A DNA stretch of 64,000 nt from NCBI GenBank assembly GCA_032622095.1, contig CP136069.1:186299122-186363121 (forward strand). Direction: 5' to 3'. Both the position numbers and the translations under genes were made by a program. Source of the stretch: Siphonodentalium dalli. Taxonomy: Eukaryota > Mollusca > Scaphopoda > Gadilida > Siphonodentaliidae. The notes beneath the pieces are model-generated. The model had not been told where the DNA came from. It saw only the letters and a list, made by a program, of their open reading frames with translations, and made no database searches. Positions within the stretch are counted from its first letter, which is position 1. Every line of letters starts with the position of its first letter. Positions 5,101-38,100 of this stretch are shown here, piece by piece.

Positions 5101-8100
5101 TAACAATTTTTTACAATTTTAATATTTTTTTCTTGTATTCTTTAACAATTTTATAATTTCACCCATACAGAGACCCAGACAAACATGAGCAGACGACACT
5201 CTTCTATATGCTTCTATATATGTGTGGGGCTCCCTGCAGGGTATAATGGATGTTTTTTATTTTATGTCCTAAAAATTGTCAGAAACATTTATTTAAAAAC
5301 AATGATAAAAAATGATTAGACCAATGCATTCTCTTATATTTGCGAGGCGACCTATGGTCGACTCGCATATATAAGAGAATGCATTGGCACATGGTAACAA
5401 AATCCCGACTTACGACTGGATTTGATATGGCTTTGATATGGTTTATTACTCAGACCCAATATGTGCAACATGAGAGTTTGATCAATAAAACAGAATACAA
5501 CAAAAATATAAGCACATGATTCGAGCGATTGAATGTGAGACAATATTTGTTTTTTACAAGTTTAACATCAACATATCTTGAGTCTGTTATGCCCCTATGG
5601 TCGACTCGCATATATAAGAGAATGCATTGGCACATGGTTAACAAATCCCGACTTACGACTGTATTTGATATGGCGGGTCACATGTGTCTTACCCTCTTCA
5701 GACCCCCTACTCCTCATTATCCGAGCGTTGTCTTACCCTCTTCAGACCCCCCTACTCCTTATTATCCGAGCGTTGTCTTACCCTCTTCAGACCCCCCTAC
5801 TCCTTATCATCCGAGCGGTTGTCTTACCCTCTTCAGACCCCCCTACTCCTTATTATCCGAGCGGTTGTCTTACCCTCTTCAGACCTCCCTACTCCTTATT
5901 ATCCGAGCGTTGTCTTACCCTCTTCAGACATCCCTACTCCTTATTATCCGAGCGTTGTCTTACCCTCTTCAGACCCCCCTACTCCTTATTATCCGAGCGG
6001 TTGTCTTACCCTCTTCAGACCCACCTACTCCTTATTATCCGAGCGTTGTCTTACCCTCTTCAGACCCCCTACTCCTTATTATCCGAGCGTTGTCTTACCC
6101 TCATCAGACATCCCTACTCCTTATTATCCGAGCGTTGTCTTACCCTCTTCAGACCCACCTACTCCTTATTATCCGAGCGGTTGTCTTACCCTCTTCAGAC
6201 CTCCCTACTCCTTATTATCCGAGCGGTTGTCTTACCCTCTTCAGACCCCCTACTCCTTATTATCCGAGCGTTGTCTTACCCTCTTCAGACATCCCTACTC
6301 ATCATTATCCGAGCGGTTGTCTTACCCTCTTCAGATCTCCCTACTCCTTATTATCCGAGCGGTTGTCTTACCCTCTTCAGACCCCCCTACTCCTTATTAT
6401 CCGAGCGGTTGTCTTACCCTCTTCAGACATCCCTACTCCTTATTATCCGAGCGGTTGTCTTACCCTCTTCAGACATCCCTACTCCTTATCATCCGAGCGG
6501 TTGTCTTACCCTCTTCAGACCCCCCTACTCCTTATCATCCGAGCGGTTGTCTTACCCTCTTCAGACCCCCTACTCATCATTATCCGAGCGGTTGTCTTAC
6601 CCTCTTCAGACCTCCCTACTCCTTATTATCCGAGCGGTTGTCGTACCCTCTTCAGACCCACCTACTCCTTATCATCCGAGCGGTTGTCTTACCCTCTTCA
6701 GACCTCCCTACTCCTTATTATCCGAGCGGTTGTCTTACCCTCTTCAGACACCCCTACTCCTTATTATCCGAGCGGTTGTCTTACCCTCTTCAGACCTCCC
6801 TACTCCTTATTATCCGAGCGGTTGTCTTACCCTCTTCAGACCTCCCTACTCCTTATTATCCGAGCGGTTGTCTTACCCTCTTCAGACCTCCCTACTCCTT
6901 ATTATCCGAGCGGTTGTCTTACCCTCTTCAGACCTCCCTACTCCTTATTATCCGAGCGGTTGTCTTACCCTCTTCAGACCCCCCTACTCCTTATTATCCG
7001 AGCGTTGTCTTACCCTCTTCAGACCCACCTACTCCTTATTATCCGAGCGGTTGTCTTACCCTCTTCAGACCCACCTACTCCTTATTATCCGAGCGGTTGT
7101 CTTACCCTCTTCAGACCTCCCTACTCCTTATTATCCGAGCGTTGTCTTACCCTCTTCAGACACCCCTACTCCTTATTATCCGAGCGGTTGTCTTACCCTC
7201 TTCAGACACCCCTACTCCTTATTATCCGAGCGGTTGTCTTACCCTCTTCAGACCCACCTACTCCTTATTATCCGAGCGTTGTCTTACCCTCTTCAGACCC
7301 CCCTACTCCTTATTATCCGAGCGGTTGTCTTACCCTCTTCAGACATCCCTACTCCTTATTATCCGAGCGGTTGTCTTACCCTCTTCAGACCCCCTACTCC
7401 TTATTATCCGAGCGGTTGTCTTACCCTCTTCAGACCCCCCTACTCCTTATTATCCGAGCGGTTGTCTTACCCTCTTCAGACCCCCCTACTCCTTATTATC
7501 CGAGCGGTTGTCTTACCCTCTTCAGACCCCCTACTCCTTATTATCCGAGCGGTTGTCTTACCCTCTTCAGACCTCCCTACTCCTTATTATCCGAGCGGTT
7601 GTCTTACCCTCTTCAGACCCCCTACTCCTTATTATCCGAGCGGTTGTCTTACCCTCTTCAGACATCCCTACTCCTTATTATCCGAGCGGTTGTCTTACCC
7701 TCTTCAGACCCCCTACTCCTTATTATCCGAGCGGTTGTCTTACCCTCTTCAGACCCCCTACTCCTTATTATCCGAGCGGTTGTCTTACCCTCTTCAGACC
7801 CCCTACTCCTTATTATCCGAGCGGTTGTCTTACCCTCTTCAGACCTCCCTACTCCTTATTATCCGAGCGGTTGTCTTACCCTCTTCAGACCTCCCTACTC
7901 CTTATTATCCGAGCGGTTGTCTTACCCTCTTCAGACCTCCCTACTCCTTATTATCCGAGCGGTTGTCTTACCCTCTTCAGACCCCCTACTCCTTATCATC
8001 CGAGCGGTTGTCTTACCCTCTTCAGACATCCTACTCCTTATTATCCGAGCGGTTGTCTTACCCTCTTCAGACCCCCCTACTCCTTATCATCCGAGCGGTT

Positions 8101-11100
8101 GTCTTACCCTCTTCAGACCCCCCTACTCCTTATTATCCGAGCGGTTGTCTTACCCTCTTCAGACCTCCCTACTCCTTATTATCCGAGCGGTTGTCTTACC
8201 CTCTTCAGACCCCCCTACTCCTTATTATCCGAGCGGTTGTCGTACCCTATTCAGACCCCATACTCCTTATTATCCGAGCGGTTGTCTTACCCTCTTCAGA
8301 CCCCCTACTCATCATTATCCGAGCGGTTGTCTTACCCTCTTCAGACCCCCCTACTCCTTATTATCCGAGCGGTTGTCGTACCCTATTCAGACCCCCCTAC
8401 TCCTTATTATCCGAGCGTTGTCTTACCCTCTTCAGACCTCCCTACTCCTCATTATCCGAGCGGTTGTCTTACCCTCTTCAGACCTCCCTACTCCTTATTA
8501 TCCGAGCGTTGTCTTACCCTCTTCAGACCCCCTACTCCTCATTATCCGAGCGTTGTCTTACCCTCTTCAGACCCCCCTACTCCTTATTATCCGAGCGGTT
8601 GTCTTACCCTCTTCAGACCTCCCTACTCCTTATTATCCGAGCGTTGTCTTACCCTCTTCAGACCCCCTACTCCTCATTATCCGAGCGTTGTCTTACCCTC
8701 TTCAGACATCCCTACTCCTTATTATCCGAGCGGTTGTCTTACCCTCTTCAGATCTCCCTACTCCTTATCATCCGAGCGGTTGTCTTACCCTCTTCAGACC
8801 CCCCTACTCCTTATTATCCGAGCGGTTGTCTTACCCTCTTCAGACATCCCTACTCCTCATTATCCGAGCGTTGTCTTACCCTCTTCAGACCCCCTACTCC
8901 TTATTATCCGAGCGGTTGTCTTACCCTCTTCAGACCTCCCTACTCCTTATCATCCGAGCGGTTGTCTTACCCTCTTCAGACCTCCCTACTCCTTATTATC
9001 CGAGCGGTTGTCTTACCCTCTTCAGACCTCCCTACTCCTTATTATCCGAGCGGTTGTCTTACCCTCTTCAGACATCCCTACTCCTTATTATCCGAGCGGT
9101 TGTCTTACCCTCTTCAGACCCCCCTACTCCTTATTATCCGAGCGGTTGTCTTACCCTCTTCAGACCCCCCTACTCCTTATTATCCGAGCGGTTGTCTTAC
9201 CCTCTTCAGACCCCCCTACTCCTTATTATCCGAGCGGTTGTCTTACCCTCTTCAGACCCCCCTACTCCTTATTATCCGAGCGGTTGTCTTACCCTCTTCA
9301 GACATCCTACTCCTTATTATCCGAGCGGTTGTCTTACCCTCTTCAGACCCCCCTACTCCTTATTATCCGAGCGGTTGTCTTACCCTCTTCAGATCTCCCT
9401 ACTCCTTATTATCCGAGCGGTTGTCTTACCCTCTTCAGACATCCCTACTCCTTATTATCCGAGCGGTTGTCTTACCCTCTTCAGACATCCCTACTCCTTA
9501 TTATCCGAGCGTTGTCTTACCCTCTTCAGACATCCCTACTCCTTATTATCCGAGCGGTTGTCTTACCCTCTTCAGACATCCCTACTCCTTATTATCCGAG
9601 CGTTGTCTTACCCTCTTCAGACATCCCTACTCCTTATTATCCGAGCGGTTGTCTTACCCTCTTCAGACATCCCTACTCCTTATTATCCGAGCGATTGTCT
9701 TACCCTCTTCAGACCCCCCTACTCCTTATCATCCGAGCGGTTGTCTTACCCTCTTCAGACCCCCCTACTCCGTATTATCCGAGCGGTTGTCTTACCCTCT
9801 TCAGATCTCCCTACTCCTTATCATCCGAGCGGTTGTCTTACCCTCTTCAGACCCCCCTACTCCTTATTATCCGAGCGGTTGTCTTACCCTCTTCAGACCC
9901 CCCTACTCCTTATTATCCGAGCGGTTGTCTTACCCTCTTCAGACCCCCCTACTCCTTATTATCCGAGCGTTGTCTTACCCTCTTCAGATCTCCCTACTCC
10001 TTATCATCCGAGCGGTTGTCTTACCCTCTTCAGACATCCCTACTCCTTATTATCCGAGCGGTTGTCTTACCCTCTTCAGATCTCCCTACTCCTTATTATC
10101 CGAGCGTTGTCTTACCCTCTTCAGACCCCCCTACTCCTTATTATCCGAGCGGTTGTCTTACCCTCTTCAGACCCCCTACTCCTTATTATCCGAGCGTTGT
10201 CTTACCCTCTTCAGATCTCCCTACTCCTTATTATCCGAGCGGTTGTCGTACCCTCTTCAGACCTCCCTACTCCTTATTATCCGAGCGGTTGTCTTACCCT
10301 CTTCAGATCTCCCTACTCCTTATTATCCGAGCGGTTGTCTTACCCTCTTCAGACCCCCCTACTCCTTATTATCCGAGCGGTTGTCTTACCCTCTTCAGAT
10401 CTCCCTACTCCTTATTATCCGAGCGGTTGTCTTACCCTCTTCAGACCCCCTACTCCTTATTATCCGAGCGGTTGTCTTACCCTCTTCAGACATCCCTACT
10501 CCTTATTATCCGAGCGGTTGTCTTACCCTCTTCAGACCCCCCTACTCCTTATTATCCGAGCGTTGTCTTACCCTCTTCAGATCTCCATACTCCTTATTAT
10601 CCGAGCGGTTGTCTTACCCTCTTCAGATCTCCCTACTCCTTATTATCCGAGCGGTTGTCGTACCCTCTTCAGACCTCCCTACTCCTTATTATCCGAGCGG
10701 TTGTCTTACCCTCTTCAGACCCCCCTACTCCTTATTATCCGAGCGGTTGTCTTACCCTCTTCAGACCCCCTACTCCTTATTATCCGAGCGGTTGTCTTAC
10801 CCTCTTCAGACATCCCTACTCCTTATTATCCGAGCGTTGTCTTACCCTCTTCAGATCTCCCTACTCCTTATTATCCGAGCGGTTGTCTTACCCTCTTCAG
10901 ACATCCCTACTCCTTATTATCCGAGCGGTTGTCTTACCCTCTTCAGACCCCCCTACTCCTTATTATCCGAGCGGTTGTCTTACCCTCTTCAGACATCCCT
11001 ACTCCTTATTATCCGAGCGGTTGTCTTACCCTCTTCAGACCCCCCTACTCCTTATTATCCGAGCGGTTGTCTTACCCTCTTCAGACCCCCTACTCCTTAT

Positions 11101-14100
11101 TATCCGAGCGGTTGTCTTACCCTCTTCAGACCCCCCTACTCCTTATTATCCGAGCGGTTGTCTTACCCTCTTCAGACCCCCTACTCCTTATTATCCGAGC
11201 GGTTGTCTTACCCTCTTCAGACATCCCTACTCCTTATTATCCGAGCGGTTGTCTTACCCTCTTCAGACCTCCCTACTCCTTATTATCCGAGCGGTTGTCT
11301 TACCCTCTTCAGACATCCCTACTCCTCATTATCCGAGCGGTTGTCTTACCCTCTTCAGACCCCCTACTCCTTATTATCCGAGCGGTTGTCTTACCCTCTT
11401 CAGACCCCCCTACTCCTTATTATCCGAGCGTTGTCTTACCCTCTTCAGATCTCCCTACTCCTCATTATCCGAGCGGTTGTCTTACCCTCTTCAGACCCCC
11501 TACTCCTTATTATCCGAGCGGTTGTCTTACCCTCTTCAGACCCCCCTACTCCTTATTATCCGAGCGTTGTCTTACCCTCTTCAGATCTCCCTACTCCTTA
11601 TTATCCGAGCGGTTGTCTTACCCTCTTCAGATCTCCCTACTCCTTATTATCCGAGCGGTTGTCGTACCCTCTTCAGACCTCCCTACTCCTTATTATCCGA
11701 GCGGTTGTCTTACCCTCTTCAGACCCCCCTACTCCTTATCGTCCGAGCGTTGTCTTACCCTCTTCAGATCTCCCTACTCCTTATTATCCGAGCGGTTGTC
11801 TTACCCTCTTCAGACATCCCTACTCCTTATTATCCGAGCGTTGTCTTACCCTCTTCAGACCCCCTACTCCTTATTATCCGAGCGTTGTCTTACCCTCTTC
11901 AGACCCCCTACTCCTTATTATCCGAGCGGTTGTCTTACCCTCTTCAGACCCCCTACTCTTTATTATCCGAGCGGTTGTCTTACCCTCTTCAGACCCCCTA
12001 CTCCTTATTATCCGAGCGGTTGTCTTACCCTCTTCAGACATCCCTACTCCTTATTATCCGAGCGGTTGTCTTACCCTCTTCAGACCTCCCTACTCCTTAT
12101 TATCCGAGCGTTGTCTTACCCTCTTCAGACATCCCTACTCCTTATTATCCGAGCGGTTGTCTTACCCTCTTCAGACCCCCCTACTCCTTATTATCCGAGC
12201 GGTTGTCTTACCCTCTTCAGACCTCCTACTCCTTATTATCCGAGCGGTTGTCTTACCCTCTTCAGATCTCCCTACTCCTTATCATCCGAGCGGTTGTCGT
12301 ACCCTCTTCAGACCCCCTACTCCTTATTATCCGAGCGGTTGTCTTACCCTCTTCAGACATCCCTACTCCTTATTATCCGAGCGTTGTCTTACCCTCTTCA
12401 GACCCCCTACTCCTTATTATCCGAGCGGTTGTCTTACCCTCTTCAGACATCCCTACTCCTTATTATCCGAGCGTTGTCTTACCCTCTTCAGACCCCCCTA
12501 CTCCTTATTATCCGAGCGGTTGTCTTACCCTCTTCAGACATCCCTACTCCTTATTATCCGAGCGGTTGTCTTACCCTCTTCAGACCCCCTACTCCTTATT
12601 ATCCGAGCGGTTGTCTTACCCTCTTCAGACATCCCTACTCCTTATTATCCGAGCGTTGTCTTACCCTCTTCAGACCCCCTACTCCTTATTATCCGAGCGG
12701 TTGTCTTACCCTCTTCAGACCCCCTACTCCTTATTATCCGAGCGGTTGTCTTACCCTCTTCAGACCCCCCTACTCCTTATTATCCGAGCGGTTGTCTTAC
12801 CCTCTTCAGACCCCCCTACTCCTCATTATCCGAGCGGTTGTCTTACCCTCTTCAGACATCCCTACTCCTTATTATCCGAGCGGTTGTCTTACCCTCTTCA
12901 GACCCCCCTACTCCTTATCATCCGAGCGGTTGTCTTACCCTCTTCAGACATCCCTACTCCTTATCATCCGAGCGGCTGTCTTACCCTCTTCAGACCCCCT
13001 ACTCATCATTATCCGAGCGGTTGTCTTACCCTCTTCAGACATCCCTACTCCTTATTATCCGAGCGTTGTCTTACCCTCTTCAGACCCCCTACTCATCATT
13101 ATCCGAGCGGTTGTCTTACCCTCTTCAGACATCCCTACTCCTTATTATCCGAGCGTTGTCTTACCCTCTTCAGACATCCCTACTCCTTATTATCCGAGCG
13201 TTGTCTTACCCTCTTCAGACCTCCCTACTCCTTATTATCCGAGCGGTTGTCGTACCCTCTTCAGACCCCCTACTCCTTATTATCCGAGCGGTTGTCTTAC
13301 CCTATTCAGACATCCCTACTCCTTATTATCCCAGCGGTTGTCTTACCCTCTTCAGACCTCCCTACTCCTTATTATCCGAGCGGTTGTCTTACCCTCTTCA
13401 GACCTCCCTACTCCTTATTATCCGAGCGGTTGTCTTACCCTCTTCAGACCTCCCTACTCCTTATTATCCGAGCGGTTGTCTTACCCTCTTCAGACCTCCC
13501 TACTCCTTATTATCCGAGCGTTTGTCTTACCCTCTTCAGACATCCCTACTCCTTATTATCCGAGCGGTTGTCTTACCCTCTTCAGACCTCCCTACTCCTT
13601 ATTATCCGAGCGGTTGTCTTACCCTCTTCAGACCTCCCTACTCCTTATTATCCGAGCGGTTGTCTTACCCTCTTCAGACCTCCCTACTCCTTATTATCCG
13701 AGCGTTTGTCTTACCCTCTTCAGACATCCCTACTCCTTATTATCCGAGCGGTTGTCTTACCCTCTTCAGACCCCCTACTCCTTATTATCCGAGCGGTTGT
13801 CTTACCCTCTTCAGATCTCCCTACTCCTTATTATCCGAGCGGTTGTCTTACCCTCTTCAGACCCCCCTACTCCTTATTATCCGAGCGGTTGTCTTACCCT
13901 CTTCAGACATCCCTACTCCTTATTATCCGAGCGGTTGTCTTACCCTCTTCAGACATCCCTACTCCTTATTATCCGAGCGGTTGTCTTACCCTCTTCAGAC
14001 ATCCCTACTCCTTATTATCCGAGCGGTTGTCTTACCCTCTTCAGACCTCCCTACTCCTTATTATCCGAGCGGTTGTCTTACCCTCTTCAGACCTCCCTAC

Positions 14101-17100
14101 TCCTTATTATCCGAGCGTTGTCTTACCCTCTTCAGACCCCCCTACTCCTTATTATCCGAGCGGTTGTCTTACCCTCTTCAGACATCCCTACTCCTTATTA
14201 TCCGAGCGGTTGTCTTACCCTCTTCAGACATCCCTACTCCTTATTATCCGAGCGGTTGTCTTACCCTCTTCAGACATCCCTACTCCTTATTATCCGAGCG
14301 GTTGTCTTACCCTCTTCAGACATCCCTACTCCTTATTATCCGAGCGGTTGTCTTACCCTCTTCAGACCCCCCTACTCCTTATTATCCGAGCGGTTGTCTT
14401 ACCCTCTTCAGACCCCCCTACTCCTTATTATCCGAGCGGTTGTCTTACCCTCTTCAGACCCCCTACTCCTTATCATCCGAGCGGTTGTTGTCTGTCATTG
14501 GATTACCATGTTATCTATAATGGCTAACTTTCTGTTATTTATATTCACGCAGTAAATGCTGCGCGAATTCAAAACTGACATAAATATTTTTGCATGTCAT
14601 AACAGGTTTAGTGTTCACTCGTTCCTGAAGATACATTAATGTTGTGCATTACAGAACATCAGAACGAAATTTATATAAAATATAACATAACTACATCATC
14701 ATTTTGTTGTGATGATGGGTTTTTATATAATCCAGAGCAACTGCGCTTTTTTACTTGGGAATTTGATAAATTCTGGGTACCGGCTTGTAACGTGGGAAAG
14801 GATAATTTAATTCAGTTATACGTTGGTATGCAGGTAGCACAGCTCGATGTAGAGGATACCGACATGTTTCGTCCATTCAATGTTACTAGAGTTACAGGCC
14901 TTGTGTGACTTGGGAATTTCTGAAATTGGTGACTGTATGAACATTTCATCTAGTAAGTTTGAGTGTTGATAGCCACGTTGAGGAGGAATGATACCCCCTT
15001 ACTATGGGGTTCATTCATTCAGTGTTGCCACAGTTATGGCCCTTGTTGGACTTATAATTATATTGAATGTTCAACTTTTGCATCGTAACTCCGATCAGAC
15101 TTGAAAATGTTATTTGGAATGTTAACATACCAGGATTGATTGAATGATATTGACATGTCTTGTCCGTGTAGTTATTGCCCTTGTCGGAAATAGCAAGATT
15201 CTCCGCCATCATTGTTACACATCTAGCATTGTTACTAAAGCACCAACAGTTGGATTTGAATATCTTTGGAATAGTGCTATGTCTATTTGAGCGAAAGGAT
15301 AGTCTTTTTATCCACTGATTTCCCCAGAGTGACCAACCTTCCTGGATTTACAAAATAACAACATGTTCCATCATACAGACAGTTATTTTTGCCAACTACC
15401 TAATTTTATCTTCGGGGGCATATGTCACGCTTGGTCTTGTACTTCTATTATATTAGTATACCGCTTGACAATATGTGTATATCGTCAGCGGGCTGTCAAA
15501 ATGCTGTGTCCGCAGTGCATTGGCACTGTAGGTACAGCATTATGGCCGCCCACTGACGATATGTACCTTATTCCTTACCAAGAACTTCTTATCATCAAAA
15601 CTAAAGTAACTCAGGTATAGATATGACAAGAAACGTTGTCAAATTAGTTTTGACACTCGTATTGTAGGTTCTATGTTCTCCGAGCATCCGAAATAAGAAC
15701 ATATAGTTGCAAATGGATCAACAACAGCAACGAAAGAGTTACGAAAGGGACTTTTAAACTAAATTCTAGCGGTGCTATGCTGCTAAGATGTTACTAAATT
15801 AAATTACTAAGAAAGGTGACTTTCAAGCTAGCAGAACACTGCTAGCATTTAGTTTGAAAGTCATTTTTCTTAAAGCTTTCATCGTGCAACAGCTTAGTAG
15901 CAGAACACTGGTATAATTTAGTTTAAAGGTCCATTTTCTTAATTCTTTCATCTAGTAACAGCTTGGCGACAAAGCTGTAATACTTTCGTAGCTGGGGTCA
16001 GCGTCCTGGCCCGATGTTGGGAACAACAACTCTCAGGTGAATGATTTAGATCATTGCCTCTGGGGTTCACTGATTTCATCAAAACAAGTTATTAATTGTC
16101 CATCTGTTGTTGATGGAATTATCCATCTGTTGTTGATGGAATTGTCCATCTGGTGTTGATGGGAGCGGCGCATACGTGTTCCAATCAAATCACGACATCT
16201 GGAGTTCAGGACGTTTTCCTCTCAGCCCATTTATACCAGACAGAGCCAATCTCTAGGACTTGACTTGACTGACTCTTGTTTCTGAACGCACACTTGATAC
16301 TAACGTGCGTGAGAAGATGTTGTTGTATTATTCTCCGTGGCCACCTGATGGGGTGCACTTGTATATAGTTGTACAATAAATGTCATCAACGTGTTTCCGA
16401 GAATTCCAACCTAATGGTTAGAACCTGTGGGACCAGCAGCCCGAGAGAGTGGTACCAAGCACTGATAGAATTTAGTATGAAACTCCCGTTTCTTAATTCT
16501 TTAATCTAGTAACAGCTTAGCAGCAGAACACTCCTAGAATTTAGTTTAAAAGTCCGTTTTCTTAATTATTTCATCTAGCAACAGCTTGGCGGCAAAGCAC
16601 TGCTAGAATTTAGTATGAAACTCCCTTTTCTTAATTCTTTAATCTAGTAACAGCTTAGCGGAAGAACACTGCTAGCATTTAGTTTGAAAGTCCCCTTTCT
16701 TAGTAATATCATGTAATAACAGCTTATTAGCAGCTGCTACTAGATGAAAGAATTAAGAAAAGGGACTTTTAAACTACATTCTAGCAGTGTTCTGCTGCTG
16801 AGCTGTATATAAATGAAAGAATTAAGAAATTGGAATTTCATAGTAACTTCTAGCAGTTCTTTGCTACTAAGCTGTTACTAAATTAAAGAACTAATGAAAA
16901 GGACTATCAAACTCAAATCTAGCAGTACTCTGCTGCTGAGCTGCTTTAAATAAGAGTGCATGACGACGAATACGCAGACCGCTGACGAGGGACACATACA
17001 TGTAAAGGTGAATAGACTGGTCATCTTGGAAAAACGCTAGCACTTTTGAAGAGAGATAAACATTTCTAAGTCACGATGGACGTATACAATGAGTACCAAC

Positions 17101-20100
17101 GAACTAATGTCAAAATCTACACGTCAAGTCGTCTGCCAAGTTTAGTGCGGGTGCCATCCTCAAGAGGGTACTTTGCAATTATTGCAAATTATGAGCATAC
17201 GTTTAGAAGTGTTTTTTTCCGGTCGACATCCTGTTATTGTGGACAGTTGGAGATTCACATAAACTGCGATGTGACTTATATAATCGTCGGTTATCGTTGT
17301 TGTGAATTGAAAACCACGTCCTTGTTGCTTAACATTGTCTTTGCTAACTGGATTCTCCTCCCAGTTATAAAAGTACATATTGGATGGTAGATTATTCATC
17401 TGGGGGTTTCGGGAGAAATACGCAGAAAATAGATACCATTAATGGAGAGGGAGTCCTATTTTTTGGAGAGAATGTTGAGATAACATGATCAGCAAACGAC
17501 CTAATGTCATTTGTTATCGATATTTTTTACATGATCCTAACCTTATTCCATTCAATAAACCCATTCTATAAATTGTGATATTAAACGTTCGTTTAATAAC
17601 AGGAAATAGTGCCAGGTGCCAGGTGACCTTTGCCTTCCGATTTGTAGTTTGTTTACATTCCTTACGCATCGTCTCAAAATACTATGGCTTCCAATATTTT
17701 TCCAACAATCTATAATGAATGGAGACCTTTAAAAGTTATGTCATTAAATATACGCCATTAAATACACAAAAATGTCTTTTGTTGATTTAGGTATGTTTAT
17801 GAGGTTTTGGATCATGTAATAAATAGAATCTACAACGAGTCCCAGTTTATAGCGGACTTTACAAAACTCGTCCAGTAAATTAGGTCTGGCCCTCGCCAAA
17901 GGCTCGGTCCAGTCCTAATTTACTGGACTCGTTTTGTAAATTCCGCTATTTACGGGGGACTCGCTGTAGATCCTCTATATATCACATACTTAGCCCATAA
18001 TCTCGACCTAATTGTTTTATTAAGACACATGTGTAGTATCGGCACGCGCAGTGACGTAAGATCTTAGCGCAATGATGTCTATATCAATATCGGAACTTTT
18101 GTATTAGGTTAATTATAATATAATTATGATATTCGATTTATGTTTGGTTATTTAGTGCTGACTGTGAGATAAAAATGCGTGATCATGGTGGTTGAACAAT
18201 TTTGTCAACATAAAAGACGCATCTAAAATCGAACTATTTTTTCTTGAATGTGTCTTTATTGCCTCTTTGGTTGCGATAAGGAAATCAATATTTTTCGAAA
18301 TTGATTAGCCCCGACCACTAAGTTTGATTCGAGCCTCGATCAATCATCGGAAAGCTCTCACCGAGGGCTTTCCGATGAATGGCAACAAGCCATATTTCCG
18401 ACTAAATCCTGAAAAGTTACCCATAATTCTGCTGTGGTTAATGAGTCGATAATTTAGAGCATTACTGTAGCTGAAACAGGCCCTCGAGACTCCCTTCGGG
18501 AACCTTTATTCGGTGTTTGAGGAGGACTGCGGCCCATTTGTGTGTTAACAACATGTGGTCCATGTGTGTGTGTGTGTGCGCGAAGCGCTTATGAAAGATA
18601 TGTCCTATTTGTTTTATATATAGAGATAATATTTATTGTGCTACTTCAATATATCCTCGTGCAGATAGGTTCATATTGGACCTAAATATTGACATCGGTT
18701 CATATTGGACTTATTTGTTTCATATTCAATTTAACAAGTTAACCAAATCATTTACATGCTCATGTACATAGGTAGATAGATAGATAGATAGATAGATAGA
18801 TATATTTTATTTGTAGGTATGGGACATTATAATTTTTTTCGTAATACAAGGCTTCATTCGGCTTACGTGAAATTTGCCAACACTGATTTTCATTGTAATA
18901 ATTTCAAGCTATTTTCCCCCTTTTTGTTTCGTAAATTATTTTCTGCTCAAGGTTCCTGCTACTAACAAGCTTTCACTTTTCGACTGGCGCCCATTATATA
19001 TACATTGTATATTATTATGCTAAAGTTCTATCAAATAAAGAATATTGACGTGACTTGATCTTTTATGTTGCATTAATTTGTTTTATTTAGGTTTTGTGGC
19101 ATTTGAGGAGAGTGGTGGGATTTGGGTAATACAGAGCACTCCTAAGTATCCTCAGGAAACATCGACTGGATACAAATGGCCAGAATCAGGGAACACAAAT
19201 GGCCAGTCTTTCCTCTGTATCTCTCTAAGCTTCGACCAAATGGATATCGTGGGTAAGACAAGAACTAGATTCTCATTCGGAACATTACAAAGGACTTGAC
19301 TTTTATGACCATAATTTCTGACAGACACATTTGAATAGATATTTTTGTTTTTAAATACCCAGGCCCGTAGATTATTGGCTTTATAGACTTTGTGTTAAGT
19401 AAAATACCAAATTAAATACAATACAATTTATATAAGACCATTTTTCGGATAACCATTTTGTCTGCTGCATTCTGGGACGAAAATTATCCAAACAGTAACA
19501 CGTGTTGGAAACAGCATGTTAGGTGTGACATAGTTGATCCATGCACTTGGCAAATGGGGGTTTCTATCAATATTTAACACGAACAGGGATCGTTTAACAG
19601 ATAAGGTTCATTTGATATATGGAGTTCGGTACCCCAGTGAATAGAGTGTCAGACTTGTACTGGTCTTAACGCACCAGCATGAGTTCGTGCCCGCCGGTGG
19701 ACTGTCGTCTCCGCAACAAGTGGCTTGATCGGATTAAGCAGTGTGTAAGCTGTATATCTGCACGCTGTTTCAAATCTCGTGCCAGGTTGTAAATAGGGAC
19801 CTGGTTATTGGATAAGCGTAAGAAGAGCCTGTAAAATGGCAGGAGGCACATCATTCGGAATTACTCAACAACTGGGGCAATAATGTGAATCACTTATGGT
19901 ATGCTGGTACTAGAGATAAGCGCTATATAAGCTTTATTATTAAAGATACGGGCGGCGTTGGCGGTGGGTATGCTGTTAAAGTATTCAGCTCCGTCAAAAA
20001 CCGTCATGAGCAGAAAGAATAGAAAAATATAGACATACCTTGTTCTTATACCAATCAGAAATATGGCATAAACAGTATATTATTGTCAAATGTTTTTCCG

Positions 20101-23100
20101 TTGTCATGTAAACTAAAGCAAAAAAACGTTACAGAACCTGGCTTTTGTTTAGATACGGATATGGTAAACATAAAGAGCATTATTTGTTACTGTTTTCCTG
20201 ATATGGAAATAATAAAGAGCGTTTATATTATGTGTGTATGATTAACCAATATAATTTCGCTGTGTTATGTAAACAGAAGCAAAACTTCTGTAACACGAGC
20301 AGGTCTTGTTTACGTACACCATCGTACGTCTTGACGACAATATATTATTTACACGCTGATTATGTTTGGTATATGAGCAAAACTATATTTATTTTAATAT
20401 TCCTTCTGTTGATGGCGATTTGACCAGATATGAATATTTCTGCTACGAACGCCGCCCGTGCCTTTAAGGCGAAGGACGAATTTATCGCCGGTGGTTTCGG
20501 ATGTCTGTGGGTTAAATAATCCCAAGCCAAGACTCGGTAATCCTTTATTATAGTCGGATAGGACTATGTTTAATCTACATTCTCTGAAACATTGGTGTAA
20601 AAATTCACAACACTATTTTAATCGGGCGTTTTCTTACACCGCAAACCAATTAGTAGTTAGCGCAATTTGGGAAATTTTCCGATTATTTAGTCCCATAAAA
20701 TCATCAATAATACGATGAGCGACTGGACATGTTTATTAACATTCTGAGGGAAGAGGAAATAATATGTGTCCCTGATATATGATTAAGACTTCACACAAAA
20801 ACTATGAAAGATAACACAGTTATAATTAGTTTTATAGACTCACACCCACAGTAAGTGCATGGGATTTACAACTCGTGTTAACGTTTGGATACTTTTCTTC
20901 CCACAATGCATGAATCTCACTATCCATAACATGGTTTATTTTCTCTTGGTCGAGACGACGACTTGAATTGGTGAATGAATGTGTCCGTTCGTCTATGACA
21001 CGACGTTAACACAAGTCGACGCAATCCGATTTTGACCATATGGATTGTACTCATAAATCAGTTTATCCACAGCTCACTATCTCTATTGTCTATAAATTGC
21101 CTAGATAAAGCCTACTTAATAAACGTAACGTTTATTACGTCAAATAGCTTATTAGGTCAACGTAGTTTTATTAGGTTAGTACTAATTTCATGATGTAATT
21201 GTATATGCAAATTGCGCAGGTAACTAGGGACGTCAACCGACCTAAATGACGTCATCGTAAACGGATATGTGTATTCGATCTAAAACATCTATAAACAATT
21301 AGTACAAGGCCAGCTTAGAATAAATATAAAAAACCCAACGAACTATTTCGCTCTAAGCTGCACTCCTGTTTTTGCACGTCATGAATGCTAATTAGTTTGC
21401 ATGACCTAATAAATGTAAGGGCGTCATCGAAGTAACGAATGTAAAACTGAGGAAAATGACAGATTTACTTCACAAAAGGCAAGTTTTGTGCGATGGATAA
21501 ATAAAATATGGGGCTAATGTTGTCGCTTAAACTGTTCCACATATGTATCAGAGTATATATTAAATGCACGATCTCCACATATGTATCAGAGTATATATTA
21601 AATGCACGATCTCCACATATGTATCAGAGTAGATATTAAATGCACGATCTCCACATATGTATCAGAGTAGATATTAAATGCACGATCTCCACATATGTAT
21701 CAGAGTATATATTAAATGCACGATCTCCACATATGTATCAGAGTATATATTAAATGCATGATCTCCACATATGTATCAGATTATATATTAAATGCATGAT
21801 CTTCACGTGTGTATCAGAGTAGATATTAAATGCACAATCTCCACATATGTATCAGAGTATATATTAAATGCACGATCTCCACATATGTATCAGAGTAGAT
21901 ATTAAATGCACGATCTCCACATATGTATCAGAGTAGATATTAAATGCACGATCTCCACATATGTATCAGAGTATATATTAAATGCACGATCTCCACATAT
22001 GTATCAGAGTAGATATTAAATGCACGATCTCCACATATGTATCAGAGTATATATTAAATGCATGATCTCCACATATGTATCAGAGTATATATTAAATGCA
22101 TGATCTTCACGTGTGTATCAGAGTAGATATTAAATGCACAATCTCCACATATGTATCAGAGACTTTTTTCAGAGTATATATTAAATGCATGATCTCCACA
22201 TGTGTATCAGATATAAAATGCATGATCTCCACATGTGTATCAGAGTAGATATTAAATGCATAATCTCCACCTGTGTATCAGAGGAGATACTAAATGCATA
22301 ATCTCAACATATGTATCAGAGTAGATATTAAATGCATAATCTCTACATGTGTATCAGAGTAGATATTAAATGCATGATCTCCACATGTGTATCAGAGTAG
22401 ATATTAAATGCATAATCTCCACATGTGTATCAGAGTAGATATTAAGTGCATGATCTCCACATGTGTATCAGAGTAGATATTAAATGCATAATCTCTACAT
22501 GTGTATCAGAGTAGATATTAAGTGCATGATCTCCACATGTGTATCAGAGTAGATATTAAATGCATAATCTCTACATGTGTATCAGAGTAGATATTAAATG
22601 CATAATCTCCACATGCGTATCAGAGTAGATATTAAGTGCATGATCTCCACATGTGTATCAGAGTAGATATTAAATGCACAATCTCCACATATGTATCAGA
22701 GACTTTTTCAGAGTATATATTAAATGCATGATCTCCACATGTGTATCAGATATAAAATGCATGATCTCCACATGTGTATCAGAGTAGATATTAAATGCAT
22801 AATCTCAACATATGTATCAGAGTAGATATTAAATGCACAATCTCCACATATGTATCAGAGACTTTTTTCAGAGTATATATTAAATGCATGATCTCCACAT
22901 GTGTATCAGATATAAAATGCATGATCTCCACATGTGTATCAGAGTAGATATTAAATGCATAATCTCCACATATGTATCAGAGTAGATACTAAATGCATAA
23001 TCTCAACATATGTATCAGAGTAGATATTAAATGCACAATCTCCACATATGTATCAGAGACTTTTTTCAGAGTATATATTAAATGCATGATCTCCACATGT

Positions 23101-26100
23101 GTATCAGATATAAAATGCATGATCTCCACATGTGTATCAGAGTAGATATTAAATGCATAATCTCCACATATGTATCAGAGTAGATACTAAATGCATAATC
23201 TCAACATATGTATCAGAGTAGATATTAAATGCACAATCTCCACATATGTATCAGAGACTTTTTTCAGAGTATATATTAAATGCATGATCTCCACATGTGT
23301 ATCAGATATAAAATGCATGATCTCCACATGTGTATCAGAGTAGATATTAAATGCATAATCTCCACATATGTATCAGAGTAGATACTAAATGCATAATCTC
23401 AACATATGTATCAGAGTAGATATTAAATGCATAATCTCTACATGTGTATCAGAGTAGATATTAAATGCATGATCTCCACATGTGTATCAGAGTAGATATT
23501 AAATGCATAATCTCTACATGTGTATCAGAGTAGATATTAAATGCATAATCTCCACATGCGTATCAGAGTAGATATTAAGTGCATGATCTCCACATGTGTA
23601 TCATAGAAGATATTAAATGCATAATATCCACATGTGTATCAGAGTAGATATTAAATGCATAATCTCCACATGTGTATCAGAGTAGATATTAAATGTATTA
23701 TCTCCACATGTGTATCAGCGTAGATATTGAATGCATAATCTCCACATGTGTATGCATAGTAGATATTAAATGCATGATCTAGAATATTGAAGCATTTGAC
23801 ACTTAACTTTGAATTTACATGTATACAGGTCATCAACTGCTTTACAACTACCCAAATGTATATGACAAGAATTTCCCATCCAAGTGGGCGTCTGAAAATC
23901 CCAAAATGGCATTTGTTGTTGACGAAATGCAGGAGCGAAAGGTCCCGTGGGACCGAGCACCCGTGAAACCAGCAGCACCATGGTCTTCAGTAGCATCATT
24001 AGAAACTATCGGAGGAACAGACATAACGAGCTTCGCTAAAACTGACCAATTTGGTAAAGGTGAGTATTATTTCTGCTACGTGGTGCAATGCCGACATGTG
24101 TACTAATGGCAGCAAACCGTAAGCAGAATAGATCAAATGTCTGTAGATAAATACGCTTCATTAATATAATAATGTAATATTGTCTTGTTCTGCTTTCAGT
24201 GAATCAATGCCCATTTTCTGCAATACATTCTGAAATGAAACATGATTTAATTTCGACTCAGTTACATTGTACCATATTAATATTTATTTTTAAATTGATA
24301 GGGAATGAAAGGAATTCAAAAAACACGTGTGCATATTTGGTAAATTAACCCTTCCATGACTGGAGTTACCTCCCTTATTAACCCTTCCATGACTGGATCT
24401 TCCTGACATTTTACAGAAACCCTGCGCCAATTCATTTTCTTATACAGTATATGCAAGTCTCATATAGGGAGCCAGTGCATTCACTTGTATATGCGAGGCT
24501 CCCCATGTGACTCAGGGTGCGCGCTGGACCGAAATTTACTTTTATGTTTCGACACTGGCGGGTTGAACGACTTTCGATATCGGTAAATTAAATACACTCG
24601 CACCTCTATTGTGGTTTATCATACAATTAGCCAATCACCGAACAATACAATGGTAGAAGTGTTGCTTCAACAGAAGGGCACATCACATGAATATTAGTAA
24701 TCCCTCCAACCATCAGTACTAATGCTATGAGATTACCCATCTCAATAGAGGTGTTAACTTTCCCTAAACCTTATAAAACACCACTAATATAACTATGTTG
24801 TAAGAGTTTCCTGAAATAAATGGTAATGATTGACCAACATGTTTTTTCAAATTGCTCGAGGAATTAAAAAGTGACTTGCCATAAGTTTTGCTAAATGAAA
24901 ATATTGTTTGCCAAATGTGAATTATTTTTGCCATTGGCAAATTTGGCAAGTGGCAGCGCGAACATAATGTGAGACTCGCATTTATAAGATAATATACTGG
25001 CACATGATCTTCAATGCTGCACCAGAGGGTCTCAGTTGGTGCGGGCCACCTTGGACTTTCCAGCTGCACCCGCGCCCTCCATTGAACCATGCAAGCCACA
25101 CTCATAAGTTTGGGTAATTATATTTGCACCCCCTTGGAAAATTTTGAAATGTCGACATAAAATTGCAAACTCCTAGCAACTAGAGTTCTAGACTGGACAC
25201 CCCATAAGGTTGGACTGTATCAGCTAAATTGATTGTATTACCCCTAAAAACAAAGCTAACGTAATGTTGGATAAAGTTCTCTGGTTTGCCACTGGCACCA
25301 CATGATATGCTGTGCGATACCCCGTGTGTCTTTTTATGTCACTGATTGTTTAATTTAATAGTGTGGGGGCAAATGTAGATATTGTATACTTTTTAGTAGA
25401 AGCAAGCCACTATGATGTTCATAACCTATTCAGTTTGGAGGGATTTTAAGACTCTATTCCAATTTTTTAACCAGCCGGAAGTAGAAAAAGATGAGAGGGT
25501 ACCGATATGGTGAAAAACGGCATGTAAATCACCCCTAGCCTTCAAAACGAAAAACGCTAAACAACCCATAACGTTAACTCTGACATTCCTGAGCACATCT
25601 GATGCTTCGACTGAACAAGTAAACCATAAGACAAGTGGATCGGATGATTTGGGGATATATCGCGGCTATTTGGGGTAGATTTGGTAAAAAACATGCGCAA
25701 AAATCCTCGAAAATATCCTGATTTTTGCTTATGACGGCAGCCATATTGGATTTGGACGTCACGTGACATTAAAACATTGGAATAGAGTCCAATTATTTAG
25801 CACAACCCATCCCGATGTTGAAAATATACATGCCTTGCTTCTACTAAAAAAGTATACAAGGAACCAGTTTTTGAACAGTTGCCCCCACACCATAATGTGT
25901 TGAAAACTTAACACCGCTATAATCACCGAGTCACCATACCAAATTTGGTTGAAAACGGCCAGGTATCAGGGAGAAACATGCGAACAGATAGACAGACAGA
26001 CAGTCAGACCGACATATTCTACTCTTTTATACATATAGATAGATAACTTTTCTGAGTAAGTTATGGTTTTTCTCTTCGAGTGAGGTTTGGGGATTATTTT

Positions 26101-32100: not shown

Positions 32101-35100
32101 TAGTCGCGGATGAACTCGAAATTGATATGTTGGTGGAGACATGGCACTGTGGTGATAAGCAAAAGATACGCCCAGACTGCACCAAACCCTATACGGTAAG
32201 TATTAACATGGTTGGTTCTGTTTATCGTTGTTTCAGCCGCTATTTCAATATAACGGGTGGAGGAATGACCACACAGAGGATTAATTAAACCGGGAAATCA
32301 CACCATCGTGTGTATATACCACCGACGCCCGGATAGCAAGTGCAAAACGTGCAAACAGATACACGAATCTGGTTACACTCATTTTGCGTGGATCACAAAT
32401 CACAAATGGCCACCGTGGATATTTGCTGCGCTTAATTTATTTTGTAATTTCTGGAACCATCATCTCTGCCTATTAAATTGACTAAAAGGAGATTGTATTT
32501 CAGTTAAGAATTGGTTGATTATCTTAGAAACTTTGCTTCTATAGCACGTGCATGATAATTATCTTTCTATATGGAGACGTGTAATCATTAAGTTTTTTAG
32601 ACACCATTGTCTCGAACGTTAGTAATACTGAATCACCAACAGATAGTCTACAGGCTTGACCAATCAGGATGACTGAACGTTGAGACAACGAGCGTCAGCT
32701 TTGATGAGATTTCACGTCTTCAAATAATCCAGGCATTCTATCTCTACCAGACTTACATATAAGTTATATTAAACTCATTGATCTCTGTGACTGCCTGCTA
32801 GTATACATGTTTACTTGATTGAATAAATATAATCATGTCTGGGAGTGTTATACCAGCTTCATCAGCGATGGACGGCCTGTGGCTGCGTAATGCACTGAAC
32901 ACTCTGCCGACTGGACAATTGGGGCGGGGCCTAGTATACATATGACAGCCTGGCTATTAGTTAAAGATGGTATATTTCTTCCTATAATTATTTATATATT
33001 CAGGGATGTCAAATAATAATGTTGACTCGGAGGAACCAGTTGACATGGGCTTCTGCGACTAGGACAACATTTTCTCGAATTATTTCCCATGAACTGGGAC
33101 ACAATTAATAAATCTAAGTGGATCGTCATCTTCATGTGGGATATATGTGTGGTGCACTTGTTTTGTTGCAGGGCGCATGTTTTTTATAAAATATTCAGAC
33201 CTACCAACGCAGTGGAGTTTTGTTTCATAGTGTTCCGAAAATAATCCTTGAGTGGATTGATTTCCGAGAACATTGATATCAGTTCCTGTATTAGGGTGTT
33301 GTTTCGTGAGCTGTATCTTGATCTTCGGTTCTATTTCACATTCAGATCATTAAGTATATACCAATTTAACCCTCTTTAATACTAAGTGCTTTCTCCCGAT
33401 CAGTTATAATAGTATAAATATAGAATGGTATATTCTTCCCCTGTAGGGACGTTCAGGATTTATGATAAACGAAATGATAATGATAATGAGTTAGCAGAAG
33501 GATTCCTATTCATTGGTGACAAATGTTCTCATGGTGAGAAATGTTCAGATAATATGTTCAATTTGTTTAACTTATTATCTGAACATTTCCAAAGGGAACT
33601 TCTCGTCGATGAGTATTTAGTTAATACAGAGTTAACGGGGTGTTGGTTGATAACAAATATTCTTACTGAACATTCAGAGCTTATCATACATGTAATGCAG
33701 TGTTGTTTTATGAGCGATATGTTTTGGAACCTTCATATTACTGCCTTGCGTTACAGGGTGTTGTTTCATGATTCTGAAATTTGTAAGGGGCTCTTAGGGT
33801 TTATCCTGTCTTTCAGGTCACTGTGTGAAGAGTTTGATATTATGAAGATGATCATTGGTTAAATATAAACTGAGAACAATGGCATATCACTACCTAAGCC
33901 TTGAAATAGTGTGTCTGATATTAATTTTGTAGAATGAGGTCTCCAGAGGGTGAATTTAGTATATATTTTAGTAACTTTTTTCTACTGTTCAGTTTCTATA
34001 TCCCATTATTTTCAGAAGATAAAATGCATATATAGTAGATGTGACTAATGTGTAAACATCACCAGCTTCAACTGGGGAACTTCAATCTGATGCTAGGTCT
34101 CACGATGCCTAAGCAGAATGAGATTCACAGAGAGTGAATTCAGAGTGGCTGATATGAAGTTACCCAGGGCTGATATGTCTCGGTCGATATTTAACTAACC
34201 ACGAAATTGCCTTGTTATTAACTAGATCAACTCTGTGGTAATACAATTATCCATTCCAACGTAAGTTCATCGCTGTAAACATAAGATTTAATGGACAGCA
34301 TGCTGGTAGAATGTTAACGAAATTTCCATCCAAAATAATACATTGACGAGTTGTAACTTTGTGTATGCACATGAACGTCATGTTTCCAAGTAGTTATTCA
34401 CGATTTCCGTTGAAATTACGGAGTAAACACCGGTTAGAAATGGTATGAATTCAATTTCCGTTAGAGATGATATAGGCATGAATTTGCATGTTTGTTGCAA
34501 TTTAGCAAAGCGAGCTCAACGATTTTGGTATTTAAGAAGCTCATAAAATGTTATTTGTGTGGTGGATTCTGTCAACAAATGGTAGATAAACGTGTTATGT
34601 ACAACATGTGCAAAAAGTGTTGTTATATCGGACTATCAACTGTGACTGCGTCCCCCGAATGGCTTTTACATTGGACATAAACATTACGCTCGCATTGTGA
34701 CGTCACAATTGATATCAGTAGAACCAAATCCATACAAATTTTCGCGAATCAATTCAAACTTAATTAAAGATGGCACAAGGCAAAGTAGTTCATAACTATG
34801 ATACTTTCAAGCCGGAAAGATTGATTTTTATCACGGAGGCAACAGTTTAAATTTTGAGACATTTGAATTGATTATTGGGTGTAAAATTAATAACGATTTG
34901 AACATCAAATATTTGGAGAATTGATACTTTATTGTATGTTGAGGACATTACGGCGATATTTTTACCTGATTGTATGTCATTTACTGTAGGTTGAAGACAT
35001 TATGGCGATATCTCTACCTAATGGAGTGTCGTTTTTTGTAGGCAGTGGTATTACGGCGATATCTCTACACAATGGATTGTCGTTTATTATAGGTTGAGGA

Positions 35101-38100
35101 TATTACGGCGATATCTCTACACAATGGATTGTCGTTTATTATAGGTTGAGGATATTACGGCGATATCTCTACACAATGGATTGTCGTTTATTATAGGTTG
35201 AGGATATTACGGCGATATCTCTACACAATGGATTGTCGTTTACTATAGGTTGAGGATACTACCGTTTTTTCTACGACGATATCTCTTCACAATGGATTGT
35301 CGTTTATTGCAGGTTGAGGATATTACGGCGATATCTCTACCTGATGGTGTGTCGTTTCTTAATTCAAAAGATCACTCCAAATGGGCGATATCTAAGGACG
35401 GAAATAAGCCGTGGATCTGCATTGGGGACATTAACAGAGAGGTTAGTTACTGTGGTGATAATAGTTTGTTTTAGGTGTTTATCGTAGTCATACCGATACG
35501 TATAGGCCAAGCTCCCCAGTGTTTTATCACTAAATTTAAAAGTGAGTAAAAAAACAGAGAGATCAAATGGGAGCTGTCATCGCTATATTAAATAGCCTTT
35601 GTCCACACATATTGTGCAATCGCCGTGGGTCTGTATGAATGTCGTTATATCTATTTAGAAACGAGGATGTTGTAAAATCCTGTATGGCCACCCATTAGCC
35701 ATGCACAAAAGTGCTTAGAATAGATAATATATTGGCACTTGTCAATCATTCCAACATTAATAAAATAGTGACATTCTTCAAATACAAATTTTCTCACAGA
35801 TAAGAAGCAATCTCATGTTGGATCATCTCTGGAAGGCGCTACACATTATATCTCCCATAACTTCTCACCATGTAAATAAGTTTGTACCGTCATCTTGATC
35901 ACATGTGTGTTAAAATATTGTATTAGGAGAGGGGCTTCATAAGTTGCAAAAACTTGTGCCCCAATCCCTTTTGTATATTTTGCAAATAAAATATGTTTCA
36001 AGTCAAGTCACAATGTCTTGGCTTGGTTTATGATCATGTCGACTAATATCTGTACCATGTGGTGCATTAAATATACTTGATGGCAGATTATCTGCAGATA
36101 ATGGCTGGCCATATACGGATAGAACTCCGAGATATATCATTTTACCACCATCCCATAAATAATTAGTTTAAACTCCGCCGTAATAGAAACTATTTAGCTC
36201 TTAAATTTAAGTTTGGAATCTAGCTTCTCGTAGATATTTACTTTAATCAATATATGCTGTGGTCATGTATACACGAGCTTTTAACCTATTTGGGCATATG
36301 TAGTTAATGATGCAAATATTCAAGAAGCCCCACACCCTTGTCAATTGAAGGGTCATGCATCCCTGTTATGAACCATTTGCAGGATTTCCATACTTTCACA
36401 TTCCCAATGCAATACTGGTACATTAAACTTCACCGAAAAGTCATCTATTGCCCTGGTAACGATAAGAGAAGCCTGCCACTCTCTCCCGTATACAAACTTG
36501 ATATCTGATCTTATCTGACAGTTTGATAAACATATAACCGAATGGGTTATTCATTTAAATTTAAATATGAGATGAATGCCCATGTGTTGTTATATGCAGT
36601 ATGTAATGTTAACAACTTATCTTATGATTTAGTAAGGAGATGGGATCTACAACCACATTTTCTAATATATGGATTTGTTTAACACTATCATATCCACTCC
36701 AAGTGCAGTCCCCTTCTTAAGACAATTTATTTGACCTTATTAAAAGAACGGCGATGGGTTCCGTAACCATATAATATATTATTTGGATTCGTTTAGCATC
36801 ACCCGCCCACTCAAAATACTTGAACCCCTTCTTGTGACAAATTAGTTGAGCTTTTGAATTAAAGTTGGGTACTGATATATATAATCCTGTGATCATTGTA
36901 GATAAATGTATCAGTTATATGTGTAACATTCGTTGCAATATGAAGTATGTGTAGTATGTTAACTCTATTCGTCTATGCAAATGAGGTGTATACCAATTAT
37001 GCTCATACTTGAAAGAAACATATCCGTGGTGTCATGCCGATGACCCATCCCTATATTATTTAATTACTTTTGAGGAAAATGAATACACTTCAACTATTAA
37101 AATATACCCTGTGACATTAATAGATCAATGGGTCGCATAAATTAGAATTTACATTTGCTCAACCAGGGGCAGAGATATGAGATTTAACAAACATCTCTTT
37201 GCCACCCCATCTCCAGGTTGTTCAATCAACCGGCAGTTAAAGACATATCGGTACCGGGGACTGGTTTTGGATATGACAGTATATGCATGAGACCGATCGG
37301 AGTTATACAAGTTATACGTACAATGTGTCAGTTATGAAATACTGTTTGGTCGGAAGACAGTGTGGATGTTGAAGAATTTAAATAAGTAATTTATTATGCT
37401 GATAATTTCAAGTAAAATAACCAGCGGTTCCATGCTTATAGCTCTTCCCCAAATGTTGTAACTAATTATGAGGAAAATTAATTCATTTCAACTATTAGAA
37501 TATACCCTTTGAAATTACTGGATCAATCGAGCTCATATATTTGGTTAAAATATGGGCAGATATAGGAGATTTAACACTCTCCATCCACCCTATCTATGAT
37601 GTTGAATTCAAGTTTTGTACTGGTATATAGATGTTCCTAGGTTACATGTAATAATGTTGATAGATTATCCGCGACCACCACGACCCGTTACCCGCCATAT
37701 CAAACCCAGTCGTAAGTCGGGAGTTTTTTTTACCCTGTGCCAATGCATTCTCTTATATATGCGAGTCGACCATAGGTCGCCTCGCATATATAAGAGAATG
37801 CATTGGCCTAACAAATTTTTACAATTTTAATAATTTTTTCTTGTATTCTTTAACAATTTTATAATTTCACCCATACAGAGCCCCAGACAAACATGAGCAG
37901 ACGACACTCTTCTATATGTTTCTATATATGTGTGGGGCTCCCTGCAGGGTAATGGATGTTTTTTATTTGATGTCCTAAAAATTGTAAGAAACATTTATTT
38001 AACAAAAGTGATAAAAAATTGTTAGGCCAATGCATTCTTTTATATATGCGAGGCGACATATGGTCGACTCGCATATATAAGAGAATGCATTGGCACAGAG

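Follow-up and report, generated by a model that had tools for sequence, protein, structure and literature searches.

A mirage-like array of splice acceptors in a DNase II-like gene, with similar minisatellites at splice junctions of other genes

Introduction

The closest described counterparts of the element treated here are the mirages of amphioxus, tandem repeats whose units lie over an acceptor or a donor junction. According to the passages available from the two papers that deal with them, mirages leave splicing normal (PMC3087553, PMC3902484): for the Adh and TnC mirages the aberrant messages are not made (PMC3902484), and duplications in PGBD5 are likened to mirages in the same amphioxus literature (PMC3087553, PMC3902484). 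Here we describe an array of this appearance in a DNase II-like gene, which lies in a 64,000-nucleotide stretch of DNA (the window) from contig 9; the assembly comprises nine contigs and 2.23 Gb. In our view it probably belongs with the amphioxus mirages as a minisatellite set over a splice junction, a tolerated tandem duplication whose decoy acceptors would go unused. Through the process that produced it, minisatellites have come to span splice junctions in no fewer than three of this animal's gene families.

As far as those sources describe them, the amphioxus mirages share several traits with the arrays of this genome: both acceptor and donor sides are affected, the AG or GT is kept in many units but not in all, and some neighbouring units are near-identical while those at the edges have diverged. 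The likeness is one of sequence features alone. Unlike the mirages of amphioxus, the arrays found here reach 109 detected units in one intron, occur in several gene families, including an Rpt6-like one, and comprise an array common to paralogs. Among the papers listed by our literature search, which was not exhaustive, mirages are described for amphioxus only.

Two further precedents concern the birth of introns. In a potato gene, as told in the available part of the report, a tandem duplication across an intron-exon boundary gave rise to a new intron (PMC4974935); as in the window, the end of the intron and the start of the exon were copied together with the acceptor and its upstream signals, but our array consists of many copies rather than a single additional one, and its sequence gives no sign of a new intron. 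In human, tandem repeats at the exon-intron boundaries of segmentally duplicated genes gave novel introns, according to the passage available from PMC2812944. These are likewise minisatellite-scale repeats at splice junctions in paralogous families, although changes in the transcripts are documented there, whereas the array in the window is known from sequence alone.

The array in the DNase II-like gene

The exon that follows the array belongs to the DNase II family (PF03265, E-value 3.7e-13, 49.8 bits against a cut-off of 23, profile positions 252-294) and contains the motif DHSKW. The exon before it ends with ACG|GTAAGT at 32195, in phase 0, and the intron between them measures 3.1 kb by coordinates. 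When Tandem Repeats Finder (TRF) was run over the whole window, a single array was reported in this region, at 34928-35361, with a period of 52, 8.1 copies and a score of 501. It is made of eight units, seven upstream copies and the authentic exon start, each joining the end of the intron (such as TTTATTATAG) to approximately the first 42 bases of the DNase II exon. The array is thus a tandem, minisatellite-like repeat, its unit spans the boundary and the AG is retained in some of the units, as in mirages.

The candidate acceptors have their first exonic bases at 34938, 34990, 35042, 35093, 35145, 35197 and 35249, and the authentic one at 35313, with successive spacings of 52, 52, 51, 52, 52, 52 and 64 (Table 1). 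An earlier reading, made from the letters of the window and hereafter the sequence-only reading, had proposed seven upstream copies of 52 bp, with one of 64 and one of 51, and both TRF and the acceptor spacings bear it out. It had also credited every copy with an AG acceptor, which is true of six of the seven; the 5′-most copy, at 34938, has AT instead.

Read in the phase of the upstream exon, all six AG decoys lead to an early stop, within a range of 16-35 codons. The three at 35093, 35145 and 35197 give 17 codons followed by GGT TGA (18 codons before the stop) and the one at 35249 gives 21 codons followed by GGT TGA (22 before the stop), so that the predicted 17-21 codons and GGT TGA hold for four of the six decoys. 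They do not for 34990, whose frame crosses the 51-bp step and stays open for 34 codons up to a later GGT TGA (35 before the stop), nor for 35042, where the register is shifted and 16 codons are followed by TAG. The intact DNase II exon is reached solely through the acceptor before 35313, just as had been claimed for the most distal-3′ site. In units 4-6, the 21 nt before the junction differ from the authentic context at only two bases, those just before the AG, and the motif AG|GTTGA occurs at five of the six AG decoys.

Paralogs and the origin of the array

The array-bearing exon has seven copies in the genome (eight matches, two of them pieces of one exon), and array units precede it in three: the gene of the window with 8 units, a large-array paralog at C9:136.84-136.86 Mb, and, on the minus strand at C9:137481312, a two-unit paralog with one extra copy in front of a frameshifted exon. 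An array was not seen at the same junction in the other four. The presence of the same unit family in paralogs rules out an array unique to the window gene. In the large-array paralog, 62 detected units, an interruption of 8.8 kb and 47 more units all lie between the exon at 136844437-136844538 and the DNase II exon at 136860924. These make 109 detected units, the last being the authentic exon start, in an intron of 16.4 kb by coordinates; they were counted by fuzzy match, and more diverged units may be missed. A similar sequence (GGGATTGGAGGACAAGTGCT...) breaks this paralog array twice, at C9:136849580-136849700 and at C9:136860790-136860900.

When the last 170 nt of the introns were compared, the sequence upstream of unit 1 matched the tails of three unduplicated paralogs (136785760, 80% over 143 nt; 137282843, 84% over 112 nt; 137055007, 83% over 112 nt) and the intron end of the two-unit paralog (75% over 107 nt). 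Upstream of unit 8, by contrast, the window sequence has no match in any of the paralog tails. The tail of a further unduplicated paralog, 136665151, matches none of the others, the window gene included. Since the paralog tails match before unit 1 and not before unit 8, the ancestral acceptor was most likely that of unit 1, which now lacks its AG, and the present acceptor would be a copy. This fits the earlier suggestion that the sequence in front of the authentic acceptor is repeat-derived.

At the junction between units, the exon sequence ...GTGTCG is joined to the intron end TTTATTG. The tetranucleotide TTTA is present both in the intron ends and in the following exon sequence of several paralogs, and this shared motif could have guided the first duplication. 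Unit 1 of the window and the first unit in the two-unit paralog carry a variant, ATTGTRTG, that recurs in many large-array units; the corresponding bases are ATGGNGT in five authentic exons out of seven. The shared variant suggests a two-unit ancestor common to the three arrays, gene conversion being an alternative source for it.

Table 1. Features of the window that belong to the array and to the DNase II-like gene (window positions)
Feature	Start	End	Strand	Remarks
Putative ancestral intron tail	34768	34937	+	shares homology with the intron ends found in three unduplicated paralogs and in the two-unit one
Unit 1, putative ancestral acceptor position, AT for AG	34938	34989	+	
Unit 2, AG acceptor retained, stop after 35 codons	34990	35041	+	
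Unit 3 (51 bp), AG retained, register shifted, TAG after 16 codons	35042	35092	+	
Units 4-6, near-identical, AG retained, GGT TGA after 17 codons	35093	35248	+	
Unit 7 (64 bp), AG retained, GGT TGA after 21 codons; 3′ end is the authentic acceptor context TTTATTGCAG	35249	35312	+	
Authentic DNase II exon, contains DHSKW and is followed by the donor GTTAGT at 35442	35313	35441	+	
First DNase II exon-like match	2075	2149	+	tblastn with paralog exons, best 6e-6; by itself without a Pfam match at E 1
Upstream DNase II exon, profile 95-151	19090	19257	+	Pfam match coordinates, 60.9 bits
Upstream DNase II exon, profile 150-218	23828	24067	+	Pfam match coordinates
Upstream DNase II exon, profile ~215-250, donor GTAAGT at 32196	32085	32195	+	exon match 186331206-186331316
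C-terminal DNase II exon-like match, profile ~294-326	41427	41495	+	tblastn with paralog exon, 5e-8

The fate of the decoy acceptors

The large-array paralog offers many more upstream copies than the window, and the AG is present in 17 of its 108 and absent from 91; an inserted element interrupts one of the latter. The majority of the AG-less copies have one common variant, AT, so the 91 losses are not independent events; the six copies just before the insert have AG. On a parsimony tree of 115 units (4 of 119 were dropped as too divergent), there are two changes at position -2 and six at position -1, against a mean of 3.7 per column. Selection to maintain the alternative acceptors has left no visible trace, given that the AG columns change like the others and that 91 of the 108 copies are without AG. 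The AG thus seems not to be retained, with a weak hint of loss at -1, and its pattern is compatible with neutral turnover.

Splice-junction arrays in other genes

Similar but independent arrays are found at other junctions of the DNase II family. An acceptor array of 61 bp x 21 precedes exon 3 of another gene, with TCTAG in 18 of the 19 listed decoys (at least one copy, which does not fit the pattern, was missed in this list). Exon 5 has a donor array of ~44 bp with five donors spaced by 45, 42, 44 and 44, of which the second and third are in frame with the first (spacings of 45 and 42), and exon 4 a donor array of 37 bp x 5.1. Boundary arrays in DNase II paralogs, two on the donor side and one on the acceptor side, lie at L007 (137281455-137281660), L082 (136776892-136777077) and L002 (bases 230-1534).

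The most telling case, an acceptor-side array of 71 bp x 9.0 (C8:150238530-150239168; L098, L106), belongs to an Rpt6/PSMC5-like gene, where it sits at the Walker A exon. The best match of this exon among PDB structures is the 26S proteasome regulatory subunit 8 (Rpt6/PSMC5), and no second close copy is present among the matches found, the next best being 62% identical. All eight decoys keep CAG|GGTGTG, and every one of them reads GVLLYGPPGTGKTLLADLY and then a stop. In the seven decoys at 150238617-150239043, the 38 nt before the authentic junction are repeated exactly in six and with one base off in the remaining one; the first unit has an upstream sequence of its own. Being near-identical, the upstream sequence can hardly separate these acceptors, and yet an essential gene presumably yields its message.

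A protein kinase exon, L066 (C1:34054030-34054566), ends with VDYLHNIGILHR and carries a donor array of 55 bp x 4.4 together with additional copies in decay. It was one of four kinase loci flagged as possible arrays: L062 was dropped, as it showed a 20-nt match; L067 was left uncounted; and L068 is a copy rather than an array, a single 80-nt copy (91%) of the kinase exon end and its donor lying ~640 bp into the intron (C4:34968774-34968853 and 34969413-34969492, by eye). At L067 (C9:73010257-73011217), a 28-bp x 34 array stops at the kinase acceptor and, as judged by eye, contains no exon sequence. A regulatory device specific to DNase II is ruled out by the kinase and proteasome arrays.

The frequency of such arrays was compared with the random seeding of minisatellites. 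With 0.31 arrays per kb in the kinase sample and 0.29 in the AAA sample, figures that include the boundary arrays themselves, 0.55 boundary-spanning seeds are expected in 16 kinase exons and 0.69 in 20 AAA exons; one array was observed in each. The 16 kinase exons were hand-picked as likely single-exon partials from 135 matches, before their flanks were seen; 30 loci of the kinase search fell in one near-identical cluster and were unusable as a control, and the 16 were taken from the other matches. The 20 AAA exons are all the AAA matches, among which L090-L093, L097, L099 and L100 are close copies and L101 resembles L102. Small as these numbers are, they suggest neither strong attraction to splice junctions nor strong avoidance of them. 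Many protein kinase genes, near-identical and for the most part open over ~281 codons, form a cluster at C2:149826753-150603706, which accounts for well over half of the 135 kinase matches.

Alternative explanations

One proposal of the sequence-only reading was a poison-acceptor switch. In such a switch the decoys would be used under some conditions, the stop-bearing messages destroyed and the enzyme level thereby set, the copy number tuning the fraction. As with poison exons linked to nonsense-mediated decay, splicing to an upstream acceptor would put a stop into the message, which holds for all six AG copies of the window and for the eight Rpt6 decoys, and units 4-6 offer a context that is authentic save for two bases. 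A stop is, however, the usual result of a shifted frame over 50-70 nt, and at the donor array of another paralog the second and third donors stay in frame. Unlike poison exons, moreover, the decoy sites give no sign of conservation, as judged from the AG-less majority of the paralog copies and from acceptor columns that change like the others, and arrays are present in unrelated genes. The switch is therefore unsupported and we consider it unlikely. The other option of the same reading, a tolerated duplication, is supported by similar donor and acceptor arrays in other genes, including the proteasome ATPase exon, at about the rate of random seeding. In a further alternative, the decoys would be used at a low and harmful level, with selection removing the AG; the AT at the ancestral acceptor of the window and in most paralog copies, and the excess of changes at -1, point in this direction. 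That excess is small, though, on a weak tree, and position -2 changed only twice; acceptors are kept in all the Rpt6 decoys, TCTAG in nearly all the listed exon 3 decoys, and AG in the six paralog copies just before the inserted element. Splicing under such strain seems to us improbable as well.

The remaining options fare worse. The array could be an intermediate in intron gain, with a unit serving as a small exon, or with the AG|GT repeats working as paired acceptor and donor and new introns appearing between units. The frequent AG|GTTGA at the window decoys and the passages on the potato gene and on the human tandem repeats (PMC4974935, PMC2812944) make this conceivable, but one whole unit taken as an exon shifts the frame, since it measures 52 bp, and we give the idea very little credence. 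Tandem arrays are also prone to mis-assembly; here the units nevertheless differ in an ordered way, the authentic junctions are intact, and arrays with different units occur in several genes and on three contigs, so that an assembly artefact has a negligible probability.

A probable tolerated duplication, and the points against it

The tolerated duplication that we favour would have started in an ancestral DNase II copy, where a tandem duplication of the last ~10 nt of the intron and the first ~42 nt of the exon would have joined exon ...GTGTCG to the intron end TTTATTGTAG, possibly with the help of TTTA. Minisatellite turnover would then have brought the unit numbers to 2, 8 and 109 detected, the last unit of each array being the authentic exon start. 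Because the rest of the exon is attached to the last unit alone, geometry forces the authentic acceptor to be always the innermost, next to the exon body, and the same applies on the donor side. In exon definition, splice sites are paired across the exon, as we expect here because the introns are kilobases long; the innermost site would win, and the outer copies would be passed over and would drift like other intron sequence. The array in this DNase II gene would be largely silent, the outer copies leaving with the intron, and it is most likely neutral for the enzyme.

Several points weigh against this explanation. The silence of the decoys is something we infer, and intron length is our ground for assuming that this species uses exon definition. 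The AG kept in six of the seven upstream copies of the window may mean some decoy use, and the loss of AG in 91 of 108 paralog copies could partly reflect selection against mildly used decoys. The parsimony tree, built on 52-nt units, is weakly resolved. The argument from Rpt6 assumes that the exon, a single one being studied, belongs to a functional gene. Finally, the DNase II set (29 exons, L001-L004 and gene D, 23 exons being used for the rate) has three boundary arrays where 0.8 would be expected, more than random seeding accounts for; the family entered the study because of an array, to which one of these three is related.

Other features of the window

The catalytic histidines of DNase II are those of the HxK motifs and of HS.P. 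The exon at 19090-19257 has Q at the IHSTP site, which reads IHSTP in paralogs L001-L003 and IQSTP in L004, L076 and L077, and with this Q in place of the histidine the enzyme of the window may be altered. Two other tandem arrays lie in the window: a 46 bp x 193-copy minisatellite with 95% matches at 5685-14488, and a 38-bp x 58 array at 21536-23780, separated by ~48 bp from the DNase II exon match that begins at 23828. In L070, L080 and L083, too, arrays lie no more than 60 bp away from exon matches.

The host and the meaning of the arrays

The genome contains a bantam-like microRNA precursor (50.2 bits, below the gathering score of 61) with the mature-like sequence TGAGATCATTACGAAAACTGATT. 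Bantam is not known outside the protostomes, and on these grounds the host is probably a protostome and not an amphioxus. GFP forms a multigene family in lancelets; a search for this family in the genome gave no match, nor did searches for a molluscan haemocyanin and an annelid linker, although an empty search does not show absence. The passage available from PMC11719827 names mir-71 and mir-277 instead of bantam. These observations suggest that mirages extend beyond amphioxus.

The general pattern across genes is more interesting than the single locus. In a far-reaching extension, which we regard as doubtful, the splice junctions of many genes in this apparently protostome animal would be self-arrayed, up to ~100 copies, with a choice of site that withstands several sequence-identical competitors, and at some of them the copy number would set the fraction of productive message, from cell to cell if unstable. 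The Rpt6 array places seven extra acceptors with almost authentic surroundings in an apparently essential gene. If its message is normal, position and not local sequence decides the splice site, and such arrays offer a natural test of exon definition. Splice-junction arrays would also supply raw material for intron gain.

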